NCBI GenBank assembly: GCA_945921355.1
Contig: CAMEKM010000002.1
Coordinates: 1-64,000 of the forward strand
DNA from: an uncultured Bacteroidales bacterium
Lineage (GTDB): Bacteria > Bacteroidota > Bacteroidia > Bacteroidales > Paludibacteraceae
DNA: 64,000 nt
Direction of reading: 5' to 3'
Under the pieces are notes generated by a model, which saw only the letters and a list, made by a program, of their open reading frames with translations, was not told the DNA's origin and ran no database searches. Both the position numbers and the translations under genes were made by a program. Position 1 is the stretch's first letter. Each line of letters starts with the position of its first letter. This document shows positions 2,930 to 59,899 of the stretch, piece after piece.

Positions 2930-4381
2930 TTGCGAAAAGGAGAGATAGATATAATCACGTTGGGTTGTTCGAAGAATCTGGTGGATGCCGAACGATTGAT
3001 GCGCCAATTGGAATTGGCAGGGTATCGTTGTGTGCATGATTCGGCTGAGCCCAAAGGTGAGATAGCCATCATCAACACTTGCGGATTCATTGGCGATGCG
3101 AAAGAGGAAAGTATTGATATTATACTACAATTCGCAGAACGAAAAAACAAAGGTAAACTGCGTAAGTTATACGTGATGGGGTGTCTGTCACAACGTTACA
3201 GAGAAGAACTGCCCGCGGAGATTCCAGAAGTGGATAAGTGGTTTGGGAAGTTTGATTATATGGGGATTGTGGAGGAGTTGAAGCCTACCCCCAACCCCTC
3301 CCTAAAGGGAAGGGAGTTTGGCGAGGAGTTGAAGCCTACTCCCAACCCCTCCCTAAAGGGAAGGGAGTTTGGCAAGGATTATGAGCGGACGCTGACAACC
3401 CCAAAACATTATGCGTATTTGAAGATTGCAGAGGGATGTAATCGATATTGTTCTTATTGCGCAATACCGTTGATTACAGGGCGATTCACATCGCGAAAAA
3501 TGGAGGATATATTGGAGGAGGTGCGATGGTTGGTAGAGCAAGGTGTGAGAGAGTTCAATGTGATTGCGCAAGACTTATCCAGCTATGGGTTAGACCTTTA
3601 CGGCGAACATAGATTGGCACAGCTGGTGGATGAGATGGCACAAATAGAGGGCGTAGAGTGGATAAGACTACATTATACCTACCCCACTGATTTTCCATAC
3701 GATTTGCTGCCCGTGATGGCAAAACACAAGAACGTGTGCAAATATATGGATATTGCCTTGCAGCATTGTTCGGACAATATGCTCCAGAAAATGCATCGCC
3801 ATATCACTCGCGCGGAGCAAGATGCTGTCATTGCTCGTATTCGAAAAGAAGTGCCAGGGATATGTATTCGTACTACACTATTGGTAGGACATCCTGGCGA
3901 GACGGAGGAGGATTTCAAGGAACTATGCGAGTGGGTAAAAGAGATGAAGTTTGAACGCATGGGGGCATTTGCATACAGCGAAGAAGAAGGAACATATGCG
4001 GCTCAACATTATAAAGATGACATTCCGCAAGAAGAAAAAGAGCGTCGCGTGGAGACACTGATGGCTATACAACAGGAAATTTCCGCAGCATTGTTGAGCC
4101 AAATGGTGGGCACACAACAACGTGTGGTGATTGATAGAGAAGAAGAGGGATATTACGTAGGACGCACACAATACGATTCGCCAGAAGTGGATTGCGAGGT
4201 GCTGATAGAGAAGGAGAAGCCTACCCCCACCCCCTCCCTTAAAGCACCCCATGACGCAAGCGTCATCGGGGACCCCGCTAAGGGAAGGGAGGATACTGGA
4301 TACCCAACATTAAAAATGGGAGAATTTTATACTGTAACTATCATAAAATCAGAGGATTTTGACCTCTACGCAACATTATGA
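2930..4381 (+). CDS. rimO: Ribosomal protein uS12 methylthiotransferase RimO with repeat-derived insertions
   Basis: RimO is a radical-SAM enzyme that methylthiolates a conserved aspartate of ribosomal protein S12. The N-terminal UPF0004 domain has the expected [4Fe-4S] ligands (ITLGCSKN at C13, NTCGF, MGCLSQ). The radical-SAM CxxxCxxC is EGCNRYCSYC near residues 168-176, and a C-terminal TRAM-like segment ends the protein. The start is TTG at 2930, chosen because MRKGEIDIITLGCSKN aligns with the family start and no ATG is available. At 483 residues it is about 45-50 longer than usual. The excess is a 34-residue tandem insert between the two N-terminal domains and a second insert near residues 430-454, both made of interspersed repeats. 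The stop overlaps the next gene by ATGA. Confidence 0.93.
   Translation: MRKGEIDIITLGCSKNLVDAERLMRQLELAGYRCVHDSAEPKGEIAIINTCGFIGDAKEESIDIILQFAERKNKGKLRKLYVMGCLSQRYREELPAEIPEVDKWFGKFDYMGIVEELKPTPNPSLKGREFGEELKPTPNPSLKGREFGKDYERTLTTPKHYAYLKIAEGCNRYCSYCAIPLITGRFTSRKMEDILEEVRWLVEQGVREFNVIAQDLSSYGLDLYGEHRLAQLVDEMAQIEGVEWIRLHYTYPTDFPYDLLPVMAKHKNVCKYMDIALQHCSDNMLQKMHRHITRAEQDAVIARIRKEVPGICIRTTLLVGHPGETEEDFKELCEWVKEMKFERMGAFAYSEEEGTYAAQHYKDDIPQEEKERRVETLMAIQQEISAALLSQMVGTQQRVVIDREEEGYYVGRTQYDSPEVDCEVLIEKEKPTPTPSLKAPHDASVIGDPAKGREDTGYPTLKMGEFYTVTIIKSEDFDLYATL
3272..3373 (+). repeat. Two tandem 51-bp repeats inside rimO
   Basis: Two 51-bp units, differing by one base, sit in frame in rimO and encode 17 residues each (EELKPTPNPSLKGREFG). 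Each contains the palindromic core CCCTCCCTAAAGGGAAGGGAG. The unit length is a multiple of three, so the reading frame is kept. Confidence 0.92.
4217..4292 (+). repeat. Nested palindromic repeats in the 3' part of rimO
   Basis: A copy of the CCCTCCCTTA / TAAGGGAAGGGAG palindrome is split by a second, 39-bp palindromic element (4241-4279). In reverse complement that element reads AGCGGGGTCCCCG, a 7-bp hairpin, then GGGGTGCTTT. The whole insert is translated in frame as part of RimO. Confidence 0.88.
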
Positions 4382-4659: not shown

Positions 4660-5667
4660 ATGGCAAACGAAAAACTCACATGGCTCGAACTGCGCAAGGC
4701 AGTGGCAGAATATGCCCATATTTCCGAACAAGAGGCAGGACTGTTTCTCAATGCCCTATTGGATGGTGTGATCGAGGGACTGAGAGTTGACAAACAAGTA
4801 AAAGTCAAAGGATTAGGCAGTTTCTCACTCAAAGCAGTTGCTCCACGTAAAAGTGTAAATATCGCCACTGGAGAAACGTTTACAATTGAAGGATATAATA
4901 AACTGACTTTCAGCGCAGAATCGCTGCTCAAAGAAAGCGTAGAAAAACGCCTTGAGCAACCACAAACGGGAGCAGTCCTATCGGAATTGAATAACGATCC
5001 ACTCAAGAAATTGGGTGAACAAGCCGATGAAATTGTAGATATATTGGCAGAATTGGGACAGGCAGTATCCAAACCATTAGATGAAGGTTTGGAAGTTCAA
5101 AAAGTGAAAGAAGTTTCAGAGGTTTCAAAGGATGAAGTGGAGGAAAGATCAGTAGAACCAGCACCAAAGGAACCCGTAAACAAATCTACTTGCAAATGCC
5201 ACAAATGGGTATGCTGGGCGATTGTTGCAGTAATATTATTGGGAATTATAGGAACAGGATTCTACTTCCGTGAGACGATCACGCAATGGTGGCAATGTGT
5301 ACAAGATTGCCAGCAAGTAATGGGAGTGGAGGACGTTCAGGAAGGTTCAGAAGTTCAGGAAGGTTCAGAAGTTCAGGAGGTTGCGTTGGCGGATCAGCCT
5401 CGCGAATATGTCAACTTTATTGGCATTGAGCGTGTGGGTCAAGATAGTCGTTTGGCATGGATTGCATACAAATACTATGCACAAAAAGATTTGTGGGTAT
5501 TTATCTACGAAGCAAATCGAGATTTGATTAAAGATCCTACGTATATACGTCCTGGACAATATATTCGTATTCCAGAATTAAGCGAAGAATATCGTAATTT
5601 GTACAATCCCGAATTAAGACAACTGGTGGATAGTTTGGCAACAAAATATTTGACAGTTGACAATTGA
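4660..5667 (+). CDS. Membrane-anchored HU domain-LysM fusion protein
   Basis: The 335-residue product has an N-terminal HU-like domain (residues 1-100, with VKVKGLGSFSLKA and a helical C-terminus). A charged linker follows, then one transmembrane helix (WVCWAIVAVILLGIIGTGFY, about 184-203), a repeat-rich stretch with two VQEGSE units, and a C-terminal LysM domain (about 246-310, with YIRPGQYIRIPEL). The likely topology puts the DNA-binding part in the cytoplasm and the LysM in the periplasm, where it could contact peptidoglycan. Similar Bacteroidales proteins exist but their function is not established. The last five codons and the stop are made by the TTGACAG repeat that follows. Confidence 0.82.
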   Translation: MANEKLTWLELRKAVAEYAHISEQEAGLFLNALLDGVIEGLRVDKQVKVKGLGSFSLKAVAPRKSVNIATGETFTIEGYNKLTFSAESLLKESVEKRLEQPQTGAVLSELNNDPLKKLGEQADEIVDILAELGQAVSKPLDEGLEVQKVKEVSEVSKDEVEERSVEPAPKEPVNKSTCKCHKWVCWAIVAVILLGIIGTGFYFRETITQWWQCVQDCQQVMGVEDVQEGSEVQEGSEVQEVALADQPREYVNFIGIERVGQDSRLAWIAYKYYAQKDLWVFIYEANRDLIKDPTYIRPGQYIRIPELSEEYRNLYNPELRQLVDSLATKYLTVDN

Positions 5668-5708
5668 CAGTTGATAATTGACAATTGACAGTTAACAGTT
5701 GACAGTTG
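5650..5708 (+). repeat. TTGACAG array bridging two genes
   Basis: The array begins inside the 3' end of the HU-LysM gene, supplies its TGA stop, fills the gap and ends with the TTG that is the only usable uvrA start codon. Confidence 0.88.
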
Positions 5709-8450
5709 AATGAAGATGTAATTCATATTCACGGGGCACGCACGCATAACCTGAAAAACATTACCGTAGATATCCCCCGCAACAAGTTGGTGGTAATCTC
5801 GGGAGTGAGCGGTAGCGGCAAGTCTTCTTTGGCCTTCGACACATTGTTTGCCGAAGGTCAAAGGCGTTATGTGGAAAGCCTGAGTTCGTATGCGCGCCAG
5901 TTTCTTGGGCGTATGCAAAAACCCGATGTAGATTTTATAGAAGGCATACCACCTGCAATAGCCATCGAGCAGAAAGTGACAAACCGCAATCCACGCAGTA
6001 CAGTAGGCACTATCACAGAGATTTATGAATATCTGAAGTCGCTATTCGCACGCGCAGGAAAGACAATCTCTCCGATAAGTGGTATGGAAGTAAAGCGCCA
6101 TAGCGTGCACGATGTGGTGGAGTGCTTGCGCCATCAAGCCATTGGAAGCAAAGTGCTATTACTCTCCCCTATCATAGCAGAGAACGTAGCGGAGCAACTG
6201 GATATATGGCAACAACAAGGTTTCTCGCGCCTATATCGCATTAACGAAGATGGCACAGGAGATATCGTGCGCATCAGCGCAAACAGTACCGTAGGAAAAA
6301 ATGGCGTTTTTCTGCTCGTTGATCGCATAGTAACCGATGATGAGCAATCCACGCTAAATCGTTTTGCAGACTCGGTACAGACGGCATTCTTTGAGGGTAA
6401 AGGCGAGTGCCAACTGATTATTACACCTCCTAATGCGACAGAAAATACCATCGCAGTATTCTCCCAACGATTTGAAGCAGATGGGATTACATTTATAGAG
6501 CCAACAGAGCATTTATTTGACTTTAACAACCCACTTGGCGCGTGTCCTACGTGTGGCGGATTTGGTAATGTCATAGGTATTGATCCCGACCTCGTGGTAC
6601 CAGATAAATCAAAGACCATTTATGAAGGTGCAATCGCTTGTTGGCGAGGCGAAAAGATGAGTCTGTGGAATGATGCGCTCGTATATGCAGCCGACAAGTT
6701 TGACTTCCCTATTCATACACCTTATTACGAACTCACGAATGAGCAGAAGCAACTGCTATGGACAGGTAACGAGTATTTTCATGGATTGAACGATTTCTTC
6801 CATGAATTAGAAAGCAAACAATATGCCAAGATTCAATACCGTGTGATGCTCAGCCGTTATCGCGGCAAAGCGATATGCCCAGACTGTCTTGGCAAACGTC
6901 TACGCAAAGAAGCAGAGTATGTGCTAATCAATGGCAAGTCCATCACACAACTTTGTCAAATACCGATTGACAGTTTACAGTTGATAGTTGACAGTTGGCA
7001 ACTTCCAGAGGCATTTAATCCTTTGGTTCTGGAGATTCGTTCGAGACTTCAGTTTATGCAAGATGTGGGCTTGGGATACCTGACACTCAGTCGAATGTCA
7101 AGCACATTATCGGGCGGTGAGGGACAGCGTATCAACTTGGCTAAATCATTGGGTAGCAGCCTTGTAGGATCGCTCTACGTATTGGACGAGCCCAGTATCG
7201 GTCTGCACCCGCGCGATACGCAGCGCCTGATTCATGTACTGAAACAATTGCGCGATTTGGGCAATACGATTGTGGTTGTGGAGCACGATGATGAGATACA
7301 AAAAGCAGCGGATTACACCATAGAGATTGGTCCAAAAGCAGGGCGTCATGGCGGTGAAGTGGTGTATGCAGGCGCACCCAAAATAGAGAAATTCACCTAC
7401 TCCATTCCGCCTTTCCGTCGAACTTGGAACAACTACATTGAGGTGATTGGGGCTACCGAAAACAACCTCAAGAATATCAATGTCCGTTTCCCGCTGAATG
7501 TAATGACAGTGGTCACGGGCGTTAGTGGTAGTGGTAAATCGTCGCTAATAAGCAAAGTGCTGTATCCTGCTCTCAAAAAGTACTACGGCGGTATCGCTGA
7601 GCGTACGGGAGATTTTGGTAGTCTGCGCGGAAGTATGCATTTGATTCAAAATGTGGAATTTGTGGATCAAAACCCATTGACCAAGTCTTCGCGTTCCAAT
7701 CCAGTGACCTATCTCAAAGCATATGACGAAATTCGCAAACTATATGCAGATCAACAGCTTAGTAAGCAAATGGGATTCACTCCTGCACACTTCTCATTCA
7801 ACACGCCAGGCGGACGCTGCGAAGCATGCCAAGGTGAAGGAAAAGTGACCATTGAAATGCAGTTTATGGCAGATATCACGTTGGAGTGCGAACACTGCCA
7901 TGGCAAGCGTTTCAAACAAGATATATTGGACGTCTTATACCGCGAAAAGAGCATTTATGATATTCTGGACATGACCGTCAATCAAGCCATTGAATTCTTC
8001 TCTGAAGATTCGGCTTGCAAGAAGATTGTCAATCGTTTACGTCCATTGCAAGACGTGGGTATCGGTTATGTAAAATTAGGTCAAGCAGGCAGTACGTTGT
8101 CAGGTGGTGAGAGTCAACGTGTGAAGTTGGCATCGTTCTTAGCACAAGAGAACGCCAGTCCTACGCTCTTTATCTTTGATGAGCCTACCACAGGTTTGCA
8201 CCACCATGATGTAACCACTCTATTGAAAGCACTTAATGCATTGATTAACAGAGGACATACAGTACTGATTATTGAGCACAATCCATCCGTTATTTTAGCA
8301 GCAGACCATATCATCGACCTCGGAAAAGAGGGCGGCGATTTAGGCGGATATATCGTAGCAGAAGGTACTCCAGAGGATATTATGCAATGCGCTGATAGCT
8401 ATACGGGCAAAGCATTGAACCAGCTAAAAGATAGTTTCATCACCAATTAA
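5706..8450 (+). CDS. uvrA: Excinuclease ABC subunit UvrA
   Basis: UvrA is the damage-sensing ATPase of nucleotide excision repair and acts as a dimer with UvrB. The 914 residues carry two ABC modules. The first has Walker [10 protein letters not shown] (33-41), a zinc module starting CPTCGG and signature LSGGEGQR. The second has Walker A near 605, the large zinc finger CEACQGEG...CEHCHGKRF (about 702-737) and signature LSGGESQR. Both Walker B regions ([18 protein letters not shown]) are intact. The start is TTG 5706: an in-frame TGA lies at 5700-5702 and no ATG occurs before conserved residues. Residues about 420-433 ([13 protein letters not shown]) are encoded by an in-frame TTGACAG-type repeat. 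Confidence 0.95.
6967..6996 (+). repeat. TTGACAG repeat inside uvrA
   Basis: About four degenerate units (TTGACAG, TTTACAG, TTGATAG, TTGACAG) lie within the coding sequence and are read in frame as [11 protein letters not shown]. They fall between the first zinc module and the signature motif of the first ABC domain, a region that tolerates length change. Confidence 0.8.
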
Positions 8451-16153: not shown

Positions 16154-16357
16154 TCAATGACTATCCAGTACTTTCCCTTTACCTTTCCCATATTTTTCTG
16201 CAAATCGTCTTCTTGCTTCCAGTTGTGCTGGTGTAGGAGGCTTATATCGTCTCGGGCAGCGTTGAATCACCTGTTTGCCGTACACTACGCGGGCATAATA
16301 GTCTTCACCTATTTTACCCTTTAACTGTTCAAATGGAACATACAATTTCGCTCTCAT
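16154..16357 (-). CDS. Small conserved island protein, family of 20539 and 21245 (67 aa)
   Basis: The product (MRAKLYVPFEQLKGKIGEDY, then YARVVYGKQVIQRCPRRYKP, then PTPAQLEARRRFAEKYGKG) is strongly basic. It shares a layout with two plus-strand proteins of the same island: an N-terminal (L/M)SGK or LKGK turn, a beta segment ending in basic residues, and P-T-x-A/E-Q-x(3)-R-x-R-F-A. It lacks their C-terminal 40 residues, so it may be truncated or a short variant. Function is unknown. The AATTC repeat starts directly at its start codon. Confidence 0.6.
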   Translation of the reverse strand: MRAKLYVPFEQLKGKIGEDYYARVVYGKQVIQRCPRRYKPPTPAQLEARRRFAEKYGKGKGKVLDSH

Positions 16358-16716
16358 AATTCAAAATTCTTAATTCAAAATTCAAAATTCTTAATTCAAA
16401 ATTCAAAATTCTTAATTCATAATTCAAAATTCCTTTTCCTTTCACCCTTCACTTCCTCTCTCCTCCCCTTTCAGGGGGAGGTTGGGAGGGGGCTTTTTCA
16501 TTCGTTAATTCAAAATTCATAATTCATAATTCTTAATTCCTTTCACCCTTCACTTCCTCTCTCCTCCCCTTTCAGGGGGAGGTTGGGAGGGGGCTTTTTC
16601 ATTCGTTAATTCAAACTTCAAACTTCCCTTGAGCGGAGCCGTTTGACTACCCTCTTAGTATGTATACATTCCCCTGTATAGGGGGAATGATACTAAGGGG
16701 GACTCATGGCTCCTGC
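16358..16716. repeat. Gene-free stretch of AATTC repeats, two 72-bp repeats and a nested hairpin
   Basis: From 16358 to 16431 there are alternating AATTCAAAATTC / TTAATTC words. Two copies of a 72-bp repeat follow at 16441-16512 and 16542-16613, each with a hairpin of the form CTCCCC-TTTC-AGGGGGAG and a T-run. At 16651-16701 lies a nested hairpin, CTTAGTAT / ATACTAAG outside and CATTCCCC / GGGGGAATG inside, just past the 3' end of the ATPase gene, where it could end its transcript. No gene is seen. Confidence 0.85.
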
Positions 16717-17769
16717 TCAAAACAGGCTCGGCATCTCCTCTCTTTGCCCCTTCTCGCTCGTGCTGCGCAGGTCGTAATATGTTTCATTGTCGTTGATCTT
16801 GCGTTTGTCTATCAGCTCCATCTGATAGGCTTGTCGCAGCAACTCCCTGTAGGCGGTCTCGCAATTCACTTCTGGAAAACAGCGCATGGCTTTATGCTTA
16901 AAATCGTATGCTCGCATGCTGGTCAAACTGCCAAATACCTTCGGTACAATAGTGGCAGCATGTATTTGTCGCGCATACTCATTCCCCACAGTTCTCTCCC
17001 CTTGAGGGGGAGTTAGAGGGGGCTTCTCTAAGATGGGCAAACCATCGGCATTCACCGTAAACTCCAACTTCGCACCAATATCATACTTCCGCGTAGCGGT
17101 CTGCTTCAGCGTGAACAACCGCGTATCCTGTTCTTTCTGACACTCGTAGGTCTCGTAGCTTTTGTTTTGCAACTCTGTGCCCAATGCGCCGCGCAACGTC
17201 TTGTCTTCCAACGCTTTGTTCTGGTGCAGCACGCACACGATGCATGCCCTTGACCACGAAGCCAGTGATAGCAACTTATCCAGCACCGTCTGGGCTTCGG
17301 TGTAGTTGTTGATATCGCCTACCACGTCGCGGATACCGTCAAAGATGACGAGGTCTGGCTTGTGTTGCACAATGCACATCTCCGCCCAATGGAGGCGGTC
17401 TTGCCAGTTGTCGCGACGCAGGTTATACACATAGTATTGCTCTTCGGGTATCGCCTGCCCAATCAGCGAACCGATGCGGTGGCACAGGATCTCGTGCGTG
17501 GAGTCTTCGCTCTGCTCGGTGTCGATCCATACCACACGCAGCATCTCATCGTGCAGGCGTGAGAGTCCCATGAGGGGCGAACGTACGCCAAGTGCCATCA
17601 GTATCGAGCAGACGAATGTCTTACCCGACTTGGCTTTACCTGTGACGGCTACGAGCTCGCCGCGGGCGAAGCACGGACGGTCGCCCCAACGGAAGAGAAA
17701 ATCGTGTTGAGGCACCGTCGTATCGGGAGTAATACGACGGGCTTGAATCTCTTCATATTCCGACTTCAT
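16717..17769 (-). CDS. RecA-like (AAA_25/RepA-type) ATPase of mobile-element type
   Basis: The 350-residue protein has Walker A GKAKSGKT (44-51), a switch aspartate/glutamate region (VVWIDTEQS), Walker B DLVIFDGIRD and the sensor strand IVCVLHQNK. This layout is that of RepA/DnaB-like hexameric ATPases encoded by plasmids and phages, which act in replication initiation or helicase loading. A C-terminal winged-helix-like segment (KHKAMRCFPEVNCETAYREL) follows. Residues about 248-262 (EKPPLTPPQGERTVGNEY) are coded by an in-frame G-rich palindromic repeat. The gene lies between an XRE regulator and small island genes, with AATTC repeats abutting its start codon. Confidence 0.75.
   Translation of the reverse strand: MKSEYEEIQARRITPDTTVPQHDFLFRWGDRPCFARGELVAVTGKAKSGKTFVCSILMALGVRSPLMGLSRLHDEMLRVVWIDTEQSEDSTHEILCHRIGSLIGQAIPEEQYYVYNLRRDNWQDRLHWAEMCIVQHKPDLVIFDGIRDVVGDINNYTEAQTVLDKLLSLASWSRACIVCVLHQNKALEDKTLRGALGTELQNKSYETYECQKEQDTRLFTLKQTATRKYDIGAKLEFTVNADGLPILEKPPLTPPQGERTVGNEYARQIHAATIVPKVFGSLTSMRAYDFKHKAMRCFPEVNCETAYRELLRQAYQMELIDKRKINDNETYYDLRSTSEKGQREEMPSLF
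16998..17031 (-). repeat. G-rich palindromic repeat inside the RecA-like ATPase gene
   Basis: Positions 16998-17031 read CCCCTTGAGGGGGAGTTAGA then GGGGGC on the plus strand. This is a relative of the 72-bp repeat core, read in frame on the minus strand as KPPLTPPQGER between the ATPase core and the C-terminal region. Confidence 0.75.
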
Positions 17770-17907
17770 AATTCAAAATTCATAATTCTTAATTCAAAAT
17801 TCTTAATTCTTAATTCCTTTCACCCTTCACTTCCTCTCTCCTCCCCTTTCAGGGGGAGGTTGGGAGGGGGCTTTTTCATTCGTTAATTCATAATTCAAAA
17901 TTCAAAA
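17770..17907. repeat. AATTC repeats and 72-bp repeat, third copy
   Basis: The gap between the XRE regulator and the ATPase gene holds AATTC-type words (17770-17818), a 72-bp repeat at 17819-17890 matching those at 16441 and 16542, then more AATTC words up to the stop codon of the regulator. Confidence 0.9.
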
Positions 17908-21580: not shown

Positions 21581-21624
21581 TTGTCAACTGTCAATTGTCA
21601 ACTGTCAACTGTCAACTGTCAACT
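21581..21624. repeat. CAACTGT array (TTGACAG family, opposite strand)
   Basis: Six head-to-tail CAACTGT/CAATTGT units fill the gap between the small paralogue and the holin-like gene, immediately after the TAA stop. Confidence 0.9.
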
Positions 21625-21872: not shown

Positions 21873-21905
21873 CTCCTTGAATTGACTATAATTGACAATT
21901 AAATT

Positions 21906-21918
21906 GACGATCATTGTC
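21906..21918. promoter_or_regulatory. 13-bp dyad upstream of the DUF5675 gene
   Basis: GACGATCATTGTC is a one-step-degenerate form of the perfect dyad GACAAT-A-ATTGTC found at 22776-22788 and 23054-23066. It lies 23 bp before the start codon within ATTGAC-rich DNA, as expected for an operator. Confidence 0.5.
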
Positions 21919-21941
21919 TTAAAAATAAACCCAAGAAAATT

Positions 21942-22490
21942 ATGTATATACGATTGATTAGAAATAAGCCGCAAGGCAATGCCATCACTGGTCGCCTCGT
22001 CATCAATGGTCGTTGGTTCTGCAACACCCTTGAGCGTGTCGGCTACCAAATCCCCGCTCTCTGCTACCATGTAGCCGTCACCCAATCACCAAAATTCAAA
22101 CGACTACTACCACTTGTCTGCAATGTCCCAACCTCACCTAAATCCTCCCCTAAAGGGAAGGACTTTAATTCCGACGAAAAACTCCCTTCCCTTCAGGGAG
22201 GGGCTGGGGGTAGGCTAGGCATCCGCTTCCATCGCGGCTCTAAACCCGAACACTCCACTGGTTGTATTTTGGTTGTCGCTGACAACAATCCCATGCCTTT
22301 ACACGCTACACCTTACACGCTACACCCTCCACAAGGCAGAACTGCTGCCGACGTGGAGCAGGAACTGACCCGTTTAATCCTCAATACCCAAAACGCCCAT
22401 GAAGAAATCATCCTCGAAGTCACTGACTTTCGTCCTGGTACTGAGTACGGTTATAATACCCCTTGCCCTTCCGAGTTGCAAAAGCCTTGA
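21942..22490 (+). CDS. DUF5675-family protein with repeat insertion
   Basis: The 182-residue product starts MYIRLIRNKPQGNAITGRLV and has INGRWFCNTLERV, VTQSPKFKRLLPLV and GIRFHRGSKPEHSTGCILV, the signature strands of DUF5675. That family is often found near holins in phage and mobile regions and may act on the cell wall; no activity is established. About 30 residues between NVP and GIRFHRG (TSPKSSPKGKD...GGAGGRL) are encoded by a GGGAAGG palindromic repeat and interrupt a region that is otherwise contiguous in the family. The 3' end overlaps the next lipoprotein gene by 92 bp in another frame. Confidence 0.78.
   Translation: MYIRLIRNKPQGNAITGRLVINGRWFCNTLERVGYQIPALCYHVAVTQSPKFKRLLPLVCNVPTSPKSSPKGKDFNSDEKLPSLQGGAGGRLGIRFHRGSKPEHSTGCILVVADNNPMPLHATPYTLHPPQGRTAADVEQELTRLILNTQNAHEEIILEVTDFRPGTEYGYNTPCPSELQKP
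22130..22218 (+). repeat. Palindromic repeat pair inside the DUF5675 gene
   Basis: CCTCCCCTAAAGGGAAGG and CTCCCTTCCCTTCAGGGAGG flank a short spacer. Both belong to the family seen in rimO. The insert keeps the reading frame. A second small repeat, TACACGCTACACC twice, follows at about 22306-22332. Confidence 0.85.
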
Positions 22491-23084: not shown

Positions 23085-23474
23085 ATGCGTTATCTTTCAT
23101 CCCTTTTATTTTTCTTCCTTCTTATATCCTGCAAAAGCCTTGACCCCACCTCCGCCGCTAGTGCTACCAGTACGGCTAGTGCTACTACTCACTCCCACGA
23201 TACGCTCATTATCCATGATAGTATCTTCGTGCGTGAGTATGTAGCGGGAGATACCATCTTTCGTGACCGCATACAATACCGTGACCGATGGCGCACGCAA
23301 ATAATCCATGATACCATCATTCGCACCGATAGCATTACGCAAGTCATCGACCACCCACCTCGTAAATATATCCCATCGTTTCACAAGTGGAGTACCGCTG
23401 CTTTTTGGATACTCATTGCATTAAGCATCGTTTACCTCATACTTCGTACAAAAATCCACGCCTTTCACCTTTAA
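23085..23474 (+). CDS. Spanin-like lipoprotein with C-terminal membrane helix (129 aa)
   Basis: The product has a lipoprotein signal (RYLSSLLFFFLLISC), a Ser/Thr/Ala linker, a periplasmic stretch of DTI/DTL repeats (HDTLIIHDSIFVREY, IHDTIIRTDSITQ) and a C-terminal transmembrane helix (AAFWILIALSIVYLILR, about 105-121). A lipoprotein anchored in the outer membrane and also in the inner membrane is the layout of unimolecular spanins, which fuse membranes at the end of phage lysis. The place downstream of holin-like and DUF5675 genes fits. The family is not certain. The last codons (AFHL) run into CTCTAACC repeat. Confidence 0.6.
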   Translation: MRYLSSLLFFFLLISCKSLDPTSAASATSTASATTHSHDTLIIHDSIFVREYVAGDTIFRDRIQYRDRWRTQIIHDTIIRTDSITQVIDHPPRKYIPSFHKWSTAAFWILIALSIVYLILRTKIHAFHL

Positions 23475-23928
23475 TCTCTAACCTTTAACTTCTCACCTTT
23501 CACCTCTAACCTTTAACCTTTAACCTCTAACCTCTCACCTTCAACTTTAATTCAAAATTCAAAATTCGCTAAACCTTAATTCTTAATTCAAAATTCATAA
23601 TTCTTAATTCAAAATTCGTTCACCCTTCACTTCCTCTCTCCTCCCCTTTCAGGGGGAGGTTGGGAGGGGGCTTTTTCATTCGTTAATTCATAATTCAAAA
23701 TTCTTAATTCTTAATTCCTTTCACCCTTCACTTCCTCTCTCCTCCCCTTTCAGGGGGAGGTTGGGAGGGGGCTTTTTCATTCGCTAATTCAAAATTCATA
23801 ATTCAAAATTACCTTAATTCATAATTCGTTCAATTTGCCGTTTAATCATGTTCATCGTTAATGTTCTTAATTTTTATAGGACACTAGTGATTTTTACCAT
23901 TTTTTACATGTGCAAAACTGCATTTTGA
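23475..23928. repeat. Gene-free repeat block
   Basis: CTCTAACCTTTAACC words (23475-23550) lead into AATTC words and two more 72-bp repeats at 23619-23690 and 23720-23791. AT-rich DNA follows. No gene is seen before the regulator at 24048. Confidence 0.9.
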
Positions 23929-33896: not shown

Positions 33897-34152
33897 AATA
33901 TATGACTATAGAAATATTTATTTAGGTTTATTGCTTTTGAATGCTTTGGCTCGTAAGAGTTCGGGATTTAGTGTTAAAAACTATCCGGGTGCTTGCACAC
34001 GAGGAGTTTTTAGCAATAAATATCGAAGGAGCGCAGCTCAAAAGCATTCAAAAGGGTTTATCTTGGTTTATTTTCTATAAAACAAACATATTAACCCGCC
34101 ATTCTCGCCTCTCCCCCTTCAGGGGGCCGGGGGGCTGGGATAAGCTTCTCAG
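33897..34152. repeat. About 240-bp insertion with nested inverted repeats
   Basis: The block separates the 32343 gene from its expected 3' hairpin. Outer arms CTTTTGAATGCTTT (33937-33950) and AAAGCATTCAAAAG (about 34049-34062) enclose inner arms TAAAAACT / AGTTTTTA and a GTGCTTGCAC centre. A G/C-rich palindrome (CCCCCTTCAGGGGG) lies at about 34112-34125. A short ORF through it has no recognisable features. It looks like a miniature palindromic element. Confidence 0.65.
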
Positions 34153-37439: not shown

Positions 37440-37620
37440 TTAAGTCCGTTTTCACCTTTCAGTTTTCCCCTTTCACCTATAGCGGCTATGCCGCGTCCGA
37501 TAGCCCTTTAGGGCGTCCGATAACCGATAGCCCTTTAGGGCGTCCAATAACCTTTCCCCTTTCACTTTTCACCTCTCACCTCTAACCTTTAACCTCTAAC
37601 CTTTAACCTTTCACCTAAAA
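37440..37620. repeat. Repeat block with variable mini-hairpins
   Basis: CCTTTCACC / CTCTAACC words surround AGCGGCTATGCCGCGTCCGA and two copies of GATAGCCCTTTAGGGCGTCC. Hairpins are again placed between a TA-rich word and GTCC. This and the terminator and promoter account for the 337-bp gap 37355-37691. Confidence 0.82.
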
Positions 37621-59492: not shown

Positions 59493-59846
59493 ATGGCAAA
59501 TGCTAACATCGAACTCAGTCTTATGGACGCTGAGGAAAAGCAACAATTGGAGTATATCTGGAATCTGATTCCTGCCGCTGACCGCGAGGGTCTAACCCAA
59601 GCAGATGTGCTGATGGTATTGGACTTGATGGACGATTACCTCGTATCACAAGGGCTACTCCAAGAGGAGGATAACACCGATGAAGTGACCTACCTCGAAG
59701 GAGAGATTGACGAGACCGAACAACTCCATTACCTCATCGAGCAAACCAAAGCACTCGGTCGTCCACTCACCAGCGAACAATTGCAACTCATCATGGATGG
59801 CGAATTGCAATACGGCATTGAGCAAGGATACTACGAAGAAGAATAA
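59493..59846 (+). CDS. Small acidic conserved protein (117 aa)
   Basis: The product (MANANIELSLMDAEEKQQLE, then YIWNLIPAADREGLTQADVL) is strongly acidic and predicted to be all helical, ending YGIEQGYYEEE. It has no signal peptide or membrane helix. I do not recognise the family; it looks like a Bacteroidales-specific conserved hypothetical. ATG 59493 follows its promoter by 30 bp, while the in-frame extension would start inside the promoter. A CAACTGT array follows the stop directly. Confidence 0.8.
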   Translation: MANANIELSLMDAEEKQQLEYIWNLIPAADREGLTQADVLMVLDLMDDYLVSQGLLQEEDNTDEVTYLEGEIDETEQLHYLIEQTKALGRPLTSEQLQLIMDGELQYGIEQGYYEEE

Positions 59847-59899
59847 CTGTCAACTGTCAACTGTCAACTGCCAACTGTCAACTGTCAACTGTCAACTGT
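59847..59899. repeat. CAACTGT array spanning the end of the phosphopantetheinyl transferase gene
   Basis: Seven head-to-tail units begin one base after the TAA of the acidic protein gene and run into the 3' end of the convergent gene, where they encode QLTVDS and the TGA stop. Confidence 0.9.

Follow-up and report, generated by a model that had tools for sequence, protein, structure and literature searches.

In-frame palindromic repeats in rimO and other genes of a Bacteroidales genome and their probable relation to a DUF559 nuclease cassette

Results and Discussion

The rimO gene and its repeats

The window analysed here (64,000 nucleotides) covers the first part of a 104-kb contig from a draft Bacteroidales genome (G000; 90 contigs, 82% complete), whose nearest named relatives are Paludibacteraceae metagenome-assembled genomes from the ruminant gut. 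Near its beginning lies rimO (Table 1), whose frame scores above the cut-off of the RimO equivalog model TIGR01125 (430 bits, cut-off 357) and contains three Pfam domains, namely UPF0004 (residues 7-106), Radical_SAM (166-336) and TRAM_2. The cysteines of the radical-SAM CxxxCxxC motif (C170, C174 and C177) and those of UPF0004 (C13, C51 and C85) are invariant in 38 sequences, and the RimO is otherwise normal despite its inserts.

The first-pass annotation of this DNA had described an in-frame tandem repeat of two 51-bp units in rimO, and Tandem Repeats Finder (3272-3378, period 51, 2.1 copies, 96% matches) together with the reading frame (2930-4381) bears this out. Direct comparison of the units (3272-3322 and 3323-3373) likewise gives the single differing base that had been reported (CCTACCCCC / CCTACTCCC), and translation and the Pfam coordinates agree that EELKPTPNPSLKGREFG is added twice, in the rimO frame, between UPF0004 and Radical_SAM. 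The description of the unit has to be amended: the duplication does span 51 bp, but the mobile core, hereafter R (AGCCTACCCCCAACCCCTCCCTAAAGGGAAGGGAG), is only 35 bp long, and the residues EELK and FG are RimO host sequence swept into the duplication. Since R is flanked in each unit by RimO sequence, 10 bp before it and 6 bp after it, R arrived first and was duplicated later with its surroundings, which makes the tandem duplication a secondary event on a dispersed mobile repeat. The two units at 3272-3373 were also an incomplete inventory: a third R element (R match at 4218-4252, 7 mismatches), which lies in the TRAM domain, had been overlooked. Palindrome B, which splits this element, occurs six times in G000, three times in the relative G025 and once in the relative G014 (in RimO itself), and in none of the other 58 genomes searched; genes that are AroA-like, KdsA-like and, in G025, ArgRS-like, as named by eye from their translations, also contain it in frame.

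Table 1. Coordinates of rimO, of the palindromic elements and of the heptamer arrays in the window
Feature	Position	Strand	Details and basis
rimO, ribosomal protein S12 methylthiotransferase	2930..4381	+	483 aa, TTG start; ORF list, TIGR01125, Pfam domains
51-bp unit, two tandem copies, one mismatch	3272..3373	+	each 10 bp host + 35-bp R + 6 bp host
R palindrome, copy 1, interdomain linker	3282..3316	+	frame PTPNPSLKGRE; 0 mismatches to R consensus
R palindrome, copy 2	3333..3367	+	1 mismatch to R consensus
Third R element, TRAM domain, split by nested palindrome B	4218..4291	+	sequence; relatives without it
Palindrome B (CACCCCATGACGCAAGCGTCATCGGGGACCCCGC), nested in tip of third R element	4245..4278	+	
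87-bp L-R doublet, in frame in DUF5675 gene	22130..22216		PF18925 match across; ORF about 21903-22487, +
Heptamer arrays	366-488, 5650-5709, 16354-16432, 17765-17816, 21582-21624, 23461-23617, 37548-37616, 59845-59899		

In an AlphaFold2 model of RimO (38 sequences, mean pLDDT 85.5) the two inserts are the sole disordered segments: the prediction falls below pLDDT 50 only at residues 125-145 and 437-453, which correspond to them, and the rest of the protein is well folded. Judging from the open frame, the conserved core and this model, the inserts probably form a disordered Pro/Lys/Gly-rich loop that is translated and tolerated by RimO.

RimO in related genomes

About 110 RimO sequences of relatives were compared, and the doubled R segment is absent from all of them, in agreement with the proposed in-frame, repeat-derived and recent insert. 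Alignment with RimO of near relatives, which lack the segment, rules out the contrary case, that of a conserved extra RimO domain; the RimO structure in the PDB (4jc0) is also without it. At the insert position, the nearest relative (L069, 88% identical in RimO) has another palindrome and the next nearest ones (L070-L072) have other sequences, that of L071 being a heptamer repeat, while in G014 and G025 the linker contains palindrome B within a heptamer tract. A related insert (PTPSLKGRE) was seen among the RimO homologues in only one more distant species (L080). In the genus, where it is filled by unrelated repeats, the linker between UPF0004 and Radical_SAM has a mean length of 30.2 residues (sd 8.7, up to 75), against 21.7 (sd 3.2) outside it. 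The third R copy, in the TRAM domain, is also missing from the RimO of relatives.

The palindrome in other genes

The core CCCTCCCTNAAGGGAAGGGAG occurs three times in the window, where 0 were expected (100 shuffles), and has 19-23 matches in the genome, where the reversed control has 0, so that its recurrence is not due to chance. In contigs C1-C5 of G000 (450 kb), which together with parts of G014 formed the genome sample, there are 12 matches to R and 6 to a second element, L, while the reversed patterns give 0 and 0. Alignment of the genome copies yields a sharply bounded 35-bp element (AGCCTACCCCCANCCCCTCCCTNAAGGGAAGGGAG). On the reverse strand of R (GGGGGTAGGCT) a GTAG can be seen by eye close to the 3' end, and not at the 5' end. 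Hairpin strength was dropped as a marker of R elements, R being no more stable than its dinucleotide shuffles (z -0.56).

Counting RimO and FemAB once each, 21 R loci were examined and 18 of them lie in open frames (a raw share, uncorrected for coding density), all but one of these 18 in recognised protein families: IspD, RseC, RimO, DUF5675, ABC-F, aldehyde dehydrogenase, FemAB, amidohydrolase, GH149, MutS2, ValRS, AroC, PriA, radical SAM, M16, UvrA and an ABC ATPase. Four reading frames of R are used (PTPNPSLKGRE, AYPQPLPKGKG, SLPFREGLGVG and LPSLQGGAGGRL). The first-pass view that repeat-derived peptides are unusual in core enzymes does not hold for this gene, because no fewer than 17 recognised genes of the same genome contain this palindrome in frame, and also because the RimO linker recurrently takes unrelated repeats across the genus. 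This distribution bears as well on local slippage, in which the insert would be a tandem duplication of RimO sequence with no mobile element involved. The 51-bp duplication is indeed a local event that took in 16 bp of RimO, but unrelated genes in the rest of the genome hold about 20 more copies of the 35-bp core, which is missing from the RimO of close relatives; as the origin of the core, slippage is refuted (we find it scarcely credible for the insert as a whole), and it holds for the second copy only.

A direct screen for gaps against G014 (450 kb) gave few clean ones, because the loops are refilled by other repeats of similar length, and a site-by-site comparison was therefore used, in which 12 other R sites were compared with sister genomes and one chimeric query of ten protein pieces served to fetch orthologous sites. 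Empty sites were found in UvrA, amidohydrolase and IspD, and, in G025, in aldehyde dehydrogenase and the ABC ATPase; different repeats occupy the same loop of the sisters in AroC, ValRS and M16, as well as in the aldehyde dehydrogenase of G014; and one R insert, in ABC-F, is shared with G025. No target-site duplication was readable at the compared sites, where the relatives are too diverged. Being repeated, in frame in genes that are unrelated to one another and missing from orthologues, R has the features of coding palindromes of the Rickettsia palindromic element (RPE) type.

Two further explanations can be weighed with these data. Assembly artefacts are the least credible of all: this is a metagenome-derived draft (82% complete, in 90 contigs), but the frames are open throughout at more than 20 in-frame sites, and independently assembled relatives have the same kind of insert in orthologous loops, including the R insert common to ABC-F of G025. 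It is very improbable that selection maintains the inserts for a function, whether as binding or regulatory loops of the proteins or as mRNA hairpins, given that sequence, length and repeat family vary by species, that sites may be empty and that AlphaFold predicts disorder; the recurrence of inserts in one and the same pair of RimO loops, and likewise in the same AroC, ValRS and M16 loops, which would speak for function, agrees with permissive loops too.

The DUF559 cassette

An R cluster of the same genome lies in a 553-residue frame (L255; contig C4, 18275-19933), a FemAB-type gene interrupted by DUF559, a Vsr-like PD-(D/E)XK nuclease domain, with several nested palindromes on both sides of the nuclease. 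This cassette has an L end and an R end, and its L is identical (36/36) to the L half of a doublet in IspD. In the relative G011 a DegT aminotransferase gene, which in G000 is uninterrupted, carries a cassette bounded by ends of the same kinds, again with L to the left and R to the right; the two DUF559 domains are identical at 66 of 107 residues, and their hosts are unrelated. Doublets of 87 bp, in which L and R are separated by 16 nt, occur in two unrelated genes (IspD and DUF5675, offset by 51-52 bp); that of DUF5675 has L at 22130-22165 (+) and R at 22182-22216 (-). The short doublets and the full cassette share both ends in the same order, as expected of MITEs of a DUF559 element, and the 87-bp doublet looks like a cassette from which the nuclease has been deleted. 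At the sequence level the comparisons show shared ends and the same type of cassette in unrelated genes, with doublets lacking the nuclease and single R copies dispersed in like fashion, and R is probably an end piece of a mobile element carrying the DUF559 nuclease.

In-frame DUF559 cassettes were found in DegT aminotransferases of the sister species G011, G017 and G029, at an identical insertion site in the first two and also in a paralogue in the third; in LeuRS of G055 and G436, at the start of the editing domain; and in MetH of five Bacteroidota genomes (L284, L286, L292, L294 and L303), with the junction before the B12-binding domain. This recurrence at homologous sites of conserved genes (DegT, MetH and LeuRS) is a hallmark of homing endonucleases. 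In other members of the genus DUF559 lies between mraY and murD or between ftsW and murG (gene pairs named by eye). Measured against 3000 random positions, the inverted-repeat score of the flanks is above the 99th percentile at 26 of 47 DUF559 loci (in the genus, at 7 of 9), and the other 21 fail this test; the comparison with displaced controls gives p=1e-12. At the thresholds searched, all three copies in the G017 genome of its end repeat are at its DUF559, and the sole R match of G011 is 10 bp from its DUF559. An intein was ruled out, no Hint splicing domain having been found in a Pfam scan of 10 proteins that contain DUF559.

As a separate observation, DUF559 is in frame in HsdR (identified by Pfam in L285, and by eye in L282 and L290) and in an MmeI-like protein; restriction-modification proteins (L277, L279, L282, L285 and L290, comprising HsdR, MmeI-like and possibly HsdS) are perhaps a favoured host class. 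The window also contains, at 34113-34134 (-), a lone palindrome (CCCCCCGGCCCCCTGAAGGGGG) of another family, which resembles the ends of the DUF559 cassettes in G017 and G029.

Proposed origin of the RimO insert

The best explanation for the whole, which we consider rather probable, is that the RimO insert is a dispersed copy of R, and that R is one of the two asymmetric ends of an L-DUF559-R element whose nuclease mobilises copies in trans. Sequence comparison shows the dispersed palindrome, its in-frame insertion, the empty sites, the later tandem duplication and the cassette architecture. It also shows that R entered, in frame, the flexible linker that joins UPF0004 and Radical_SAM, once this species had split from its nearest sequenced relatives, and was then tandemly duplicated along with 16 bp of host; another copy entered a TRAM-domain loop in frame and was later struck itself by palindrome B. 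Mobilisation of these repeats by DUF559 is the more conjectural part: the nuclease, acting in trans, most likely cuts DNA at or near hairpins or targets, copies probably spread by repair or homing (as proposed with RAYT for REPs), and selection probably spares only in-frame, stop-free insertions in permissive loops. Single R copies end sharply at GGGAG on their 3' side, a boundary that is not explained if R is simply the terminus of a nuclease cassette; this counts against the DUF559 model, as do the R-rich genomes considered below, the 21 DUF559 loci that fail the flank test, the unreadable target-site duplications and the unremarkable stability of the hairpin.

The repeats could instead be REP- or MITE-like and moved by an unrelated (or past) transposase, DUF559 being a passenger that collects repeats at its edges. 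Consistent with such a passenger, there are R-rich genomes (G022, with 36 matches and 88% complete; G036, with 20; G006, with 18) in which DUF559 was undetected, so that the nuclease is either unneeded now or missing from those drafts; moreover, unrelated repeats (heptamer arrays, the GDEAKG type and B) lie in the same loops, so loops accept anything. Against it, the order and orientation of the asymmetric ends L and R are the same around DUF559 in two unrelated hosts and in the doublets without nuclease, the end-repeat copies of G011 and G017 are exclusive to the cassette, and the Y1_Tnp/RAYT family (PF01797) has no match in G000, itself 82% complete, or in the nearly complete relatives G011, G014, G017, G028, G033 and G034; RAYT as the mobiliser was dropped on account of its absence from G000. 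On balance, a passenger role for DUF559 seems rather unlikely. The broader statement of the nuclease-cassette explanation is that L-DUF559-R is a widespread Bacteroidota element, present in frame in essential genes without splicing, whose palindromic ends serve as translated linkers and spread alone as REP-like coding palindromes, rebuilding loops that include those of RimO; we put this forward tentatively, as a possibility that falls somewhat short of probable.

Relation to known systems

In-frame coding palindromes are known from Rickettsia as RPEs (Ogata et al. 2000, 2002, reviewed in PMC10969869). The likeness is close, with palindromes in frame in unrelated and often core genes, several families and an extra peptide compatible with folding, but RPEs are about 150 bp long and belong to Alphaproteobacteria, whereas here the elements are of 35 or 87 bp, are found in Bacteroidales, are read in four frames and are linked to a DUF559 cassette; the two are set apart by description. 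To our knowledge, no mobiliser has been identified for the Rickettsia coding palindromes; those described here share their ends with a nuclease cassette, a testable candidate. The Bacteroidota system is related in kind to RPEs and would be categorically new if the nuclease is the mobiliser. It represents a second, unrelated lineage in which coding palindromes are common, occur in highly conserved enzymes and come and go from one sister species to the next.

Intragenic REPs and REPtrons (GTAG/CGTC) are known from several species (PMC3733652), and resemble the present elements as palindromes of 20-40 bp that occur as singles and inverted dimers, with some copies in repair genes such as uvrA. As in REPtrons, a nuclease gene is flanked by the same palindromes, although here the nuclease is DUF559 and not RAYT; unlike REPs, most of which lie between genes and whose mobilisation is attributed to RAYT (HUH, Y1), these elements are mostly intragenic and the genome has no detected Y1 transposase. 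DUF559, which has been found in a Vsr-like protein, was placed among the EDxHD/Vsr-like homing endonucleases (PMC9403480), with which the cassette shares the nuclease family and the recurrent insertion sites in conserved genes; those nucleases have been described with inteins and introns, which splice out, whereas here there is no splicing domain and the cassette stays in frame, with palindrome-coded linkers. PARCEL (PMC2996958) is also coding DNA with dyad symmetry that is suspected to be mobile, but it consists of 25-residue tandem domains in membrane-associated proteins, in contrast to the scattered single inserts in enzymes seen here. In the open-licence literature we found no report of in-frame, non-splicing DUF559 cassettes or of their ends as coding palindromes, nothing on DUF559 in connection with palindromes, with mobility in Bacteroidetes, with MetH or with LeuRS, and no paper on the peptide strings considered here.

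If the broader reading of a widespread L-DUF559-R element is true, the element would amount to a homing or REPtron-like system that works with a PD-(D/E)XK nuclease in place of an HUH transposase; if DUF559 moves the repeats, their source becomes testable and many odd low-complexity loops of Bacteroidota proteins would be explained. For annotation, the warning is that some extra protein segments here are translated mobile DNA.

Other repeats in the window

The window also contains many tandem arrays whose period is exactly 7, of differing heptamers (ACAGTTG, TCAAAAT, ACCTTTC and others; Table 1), a type that fills protein loops of relatives, such as the RimO linker of L071, L084 and L094 and the ValRS of G025. 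A tandem composite of 101 bp, made up of heptamers together with a C/G-rich palindrome (CTCCTCCCCTTTCAGGGGGAGGTTGGGAGGGGGC), occurs at 16407-16620 and at 23579-23820. At 37497-37552 there is a 27-bp repeat (CCGATAGCCCTTTAGGGCGTCCAATAA), and a sequence related to it is in frame in the aldehyde dehydrogenase of G014 (L340). Finally, an 18-bp repeat at 5335-5382 encodes GSEVQEGSEVQEG in an HU-like gene (4660-5667).
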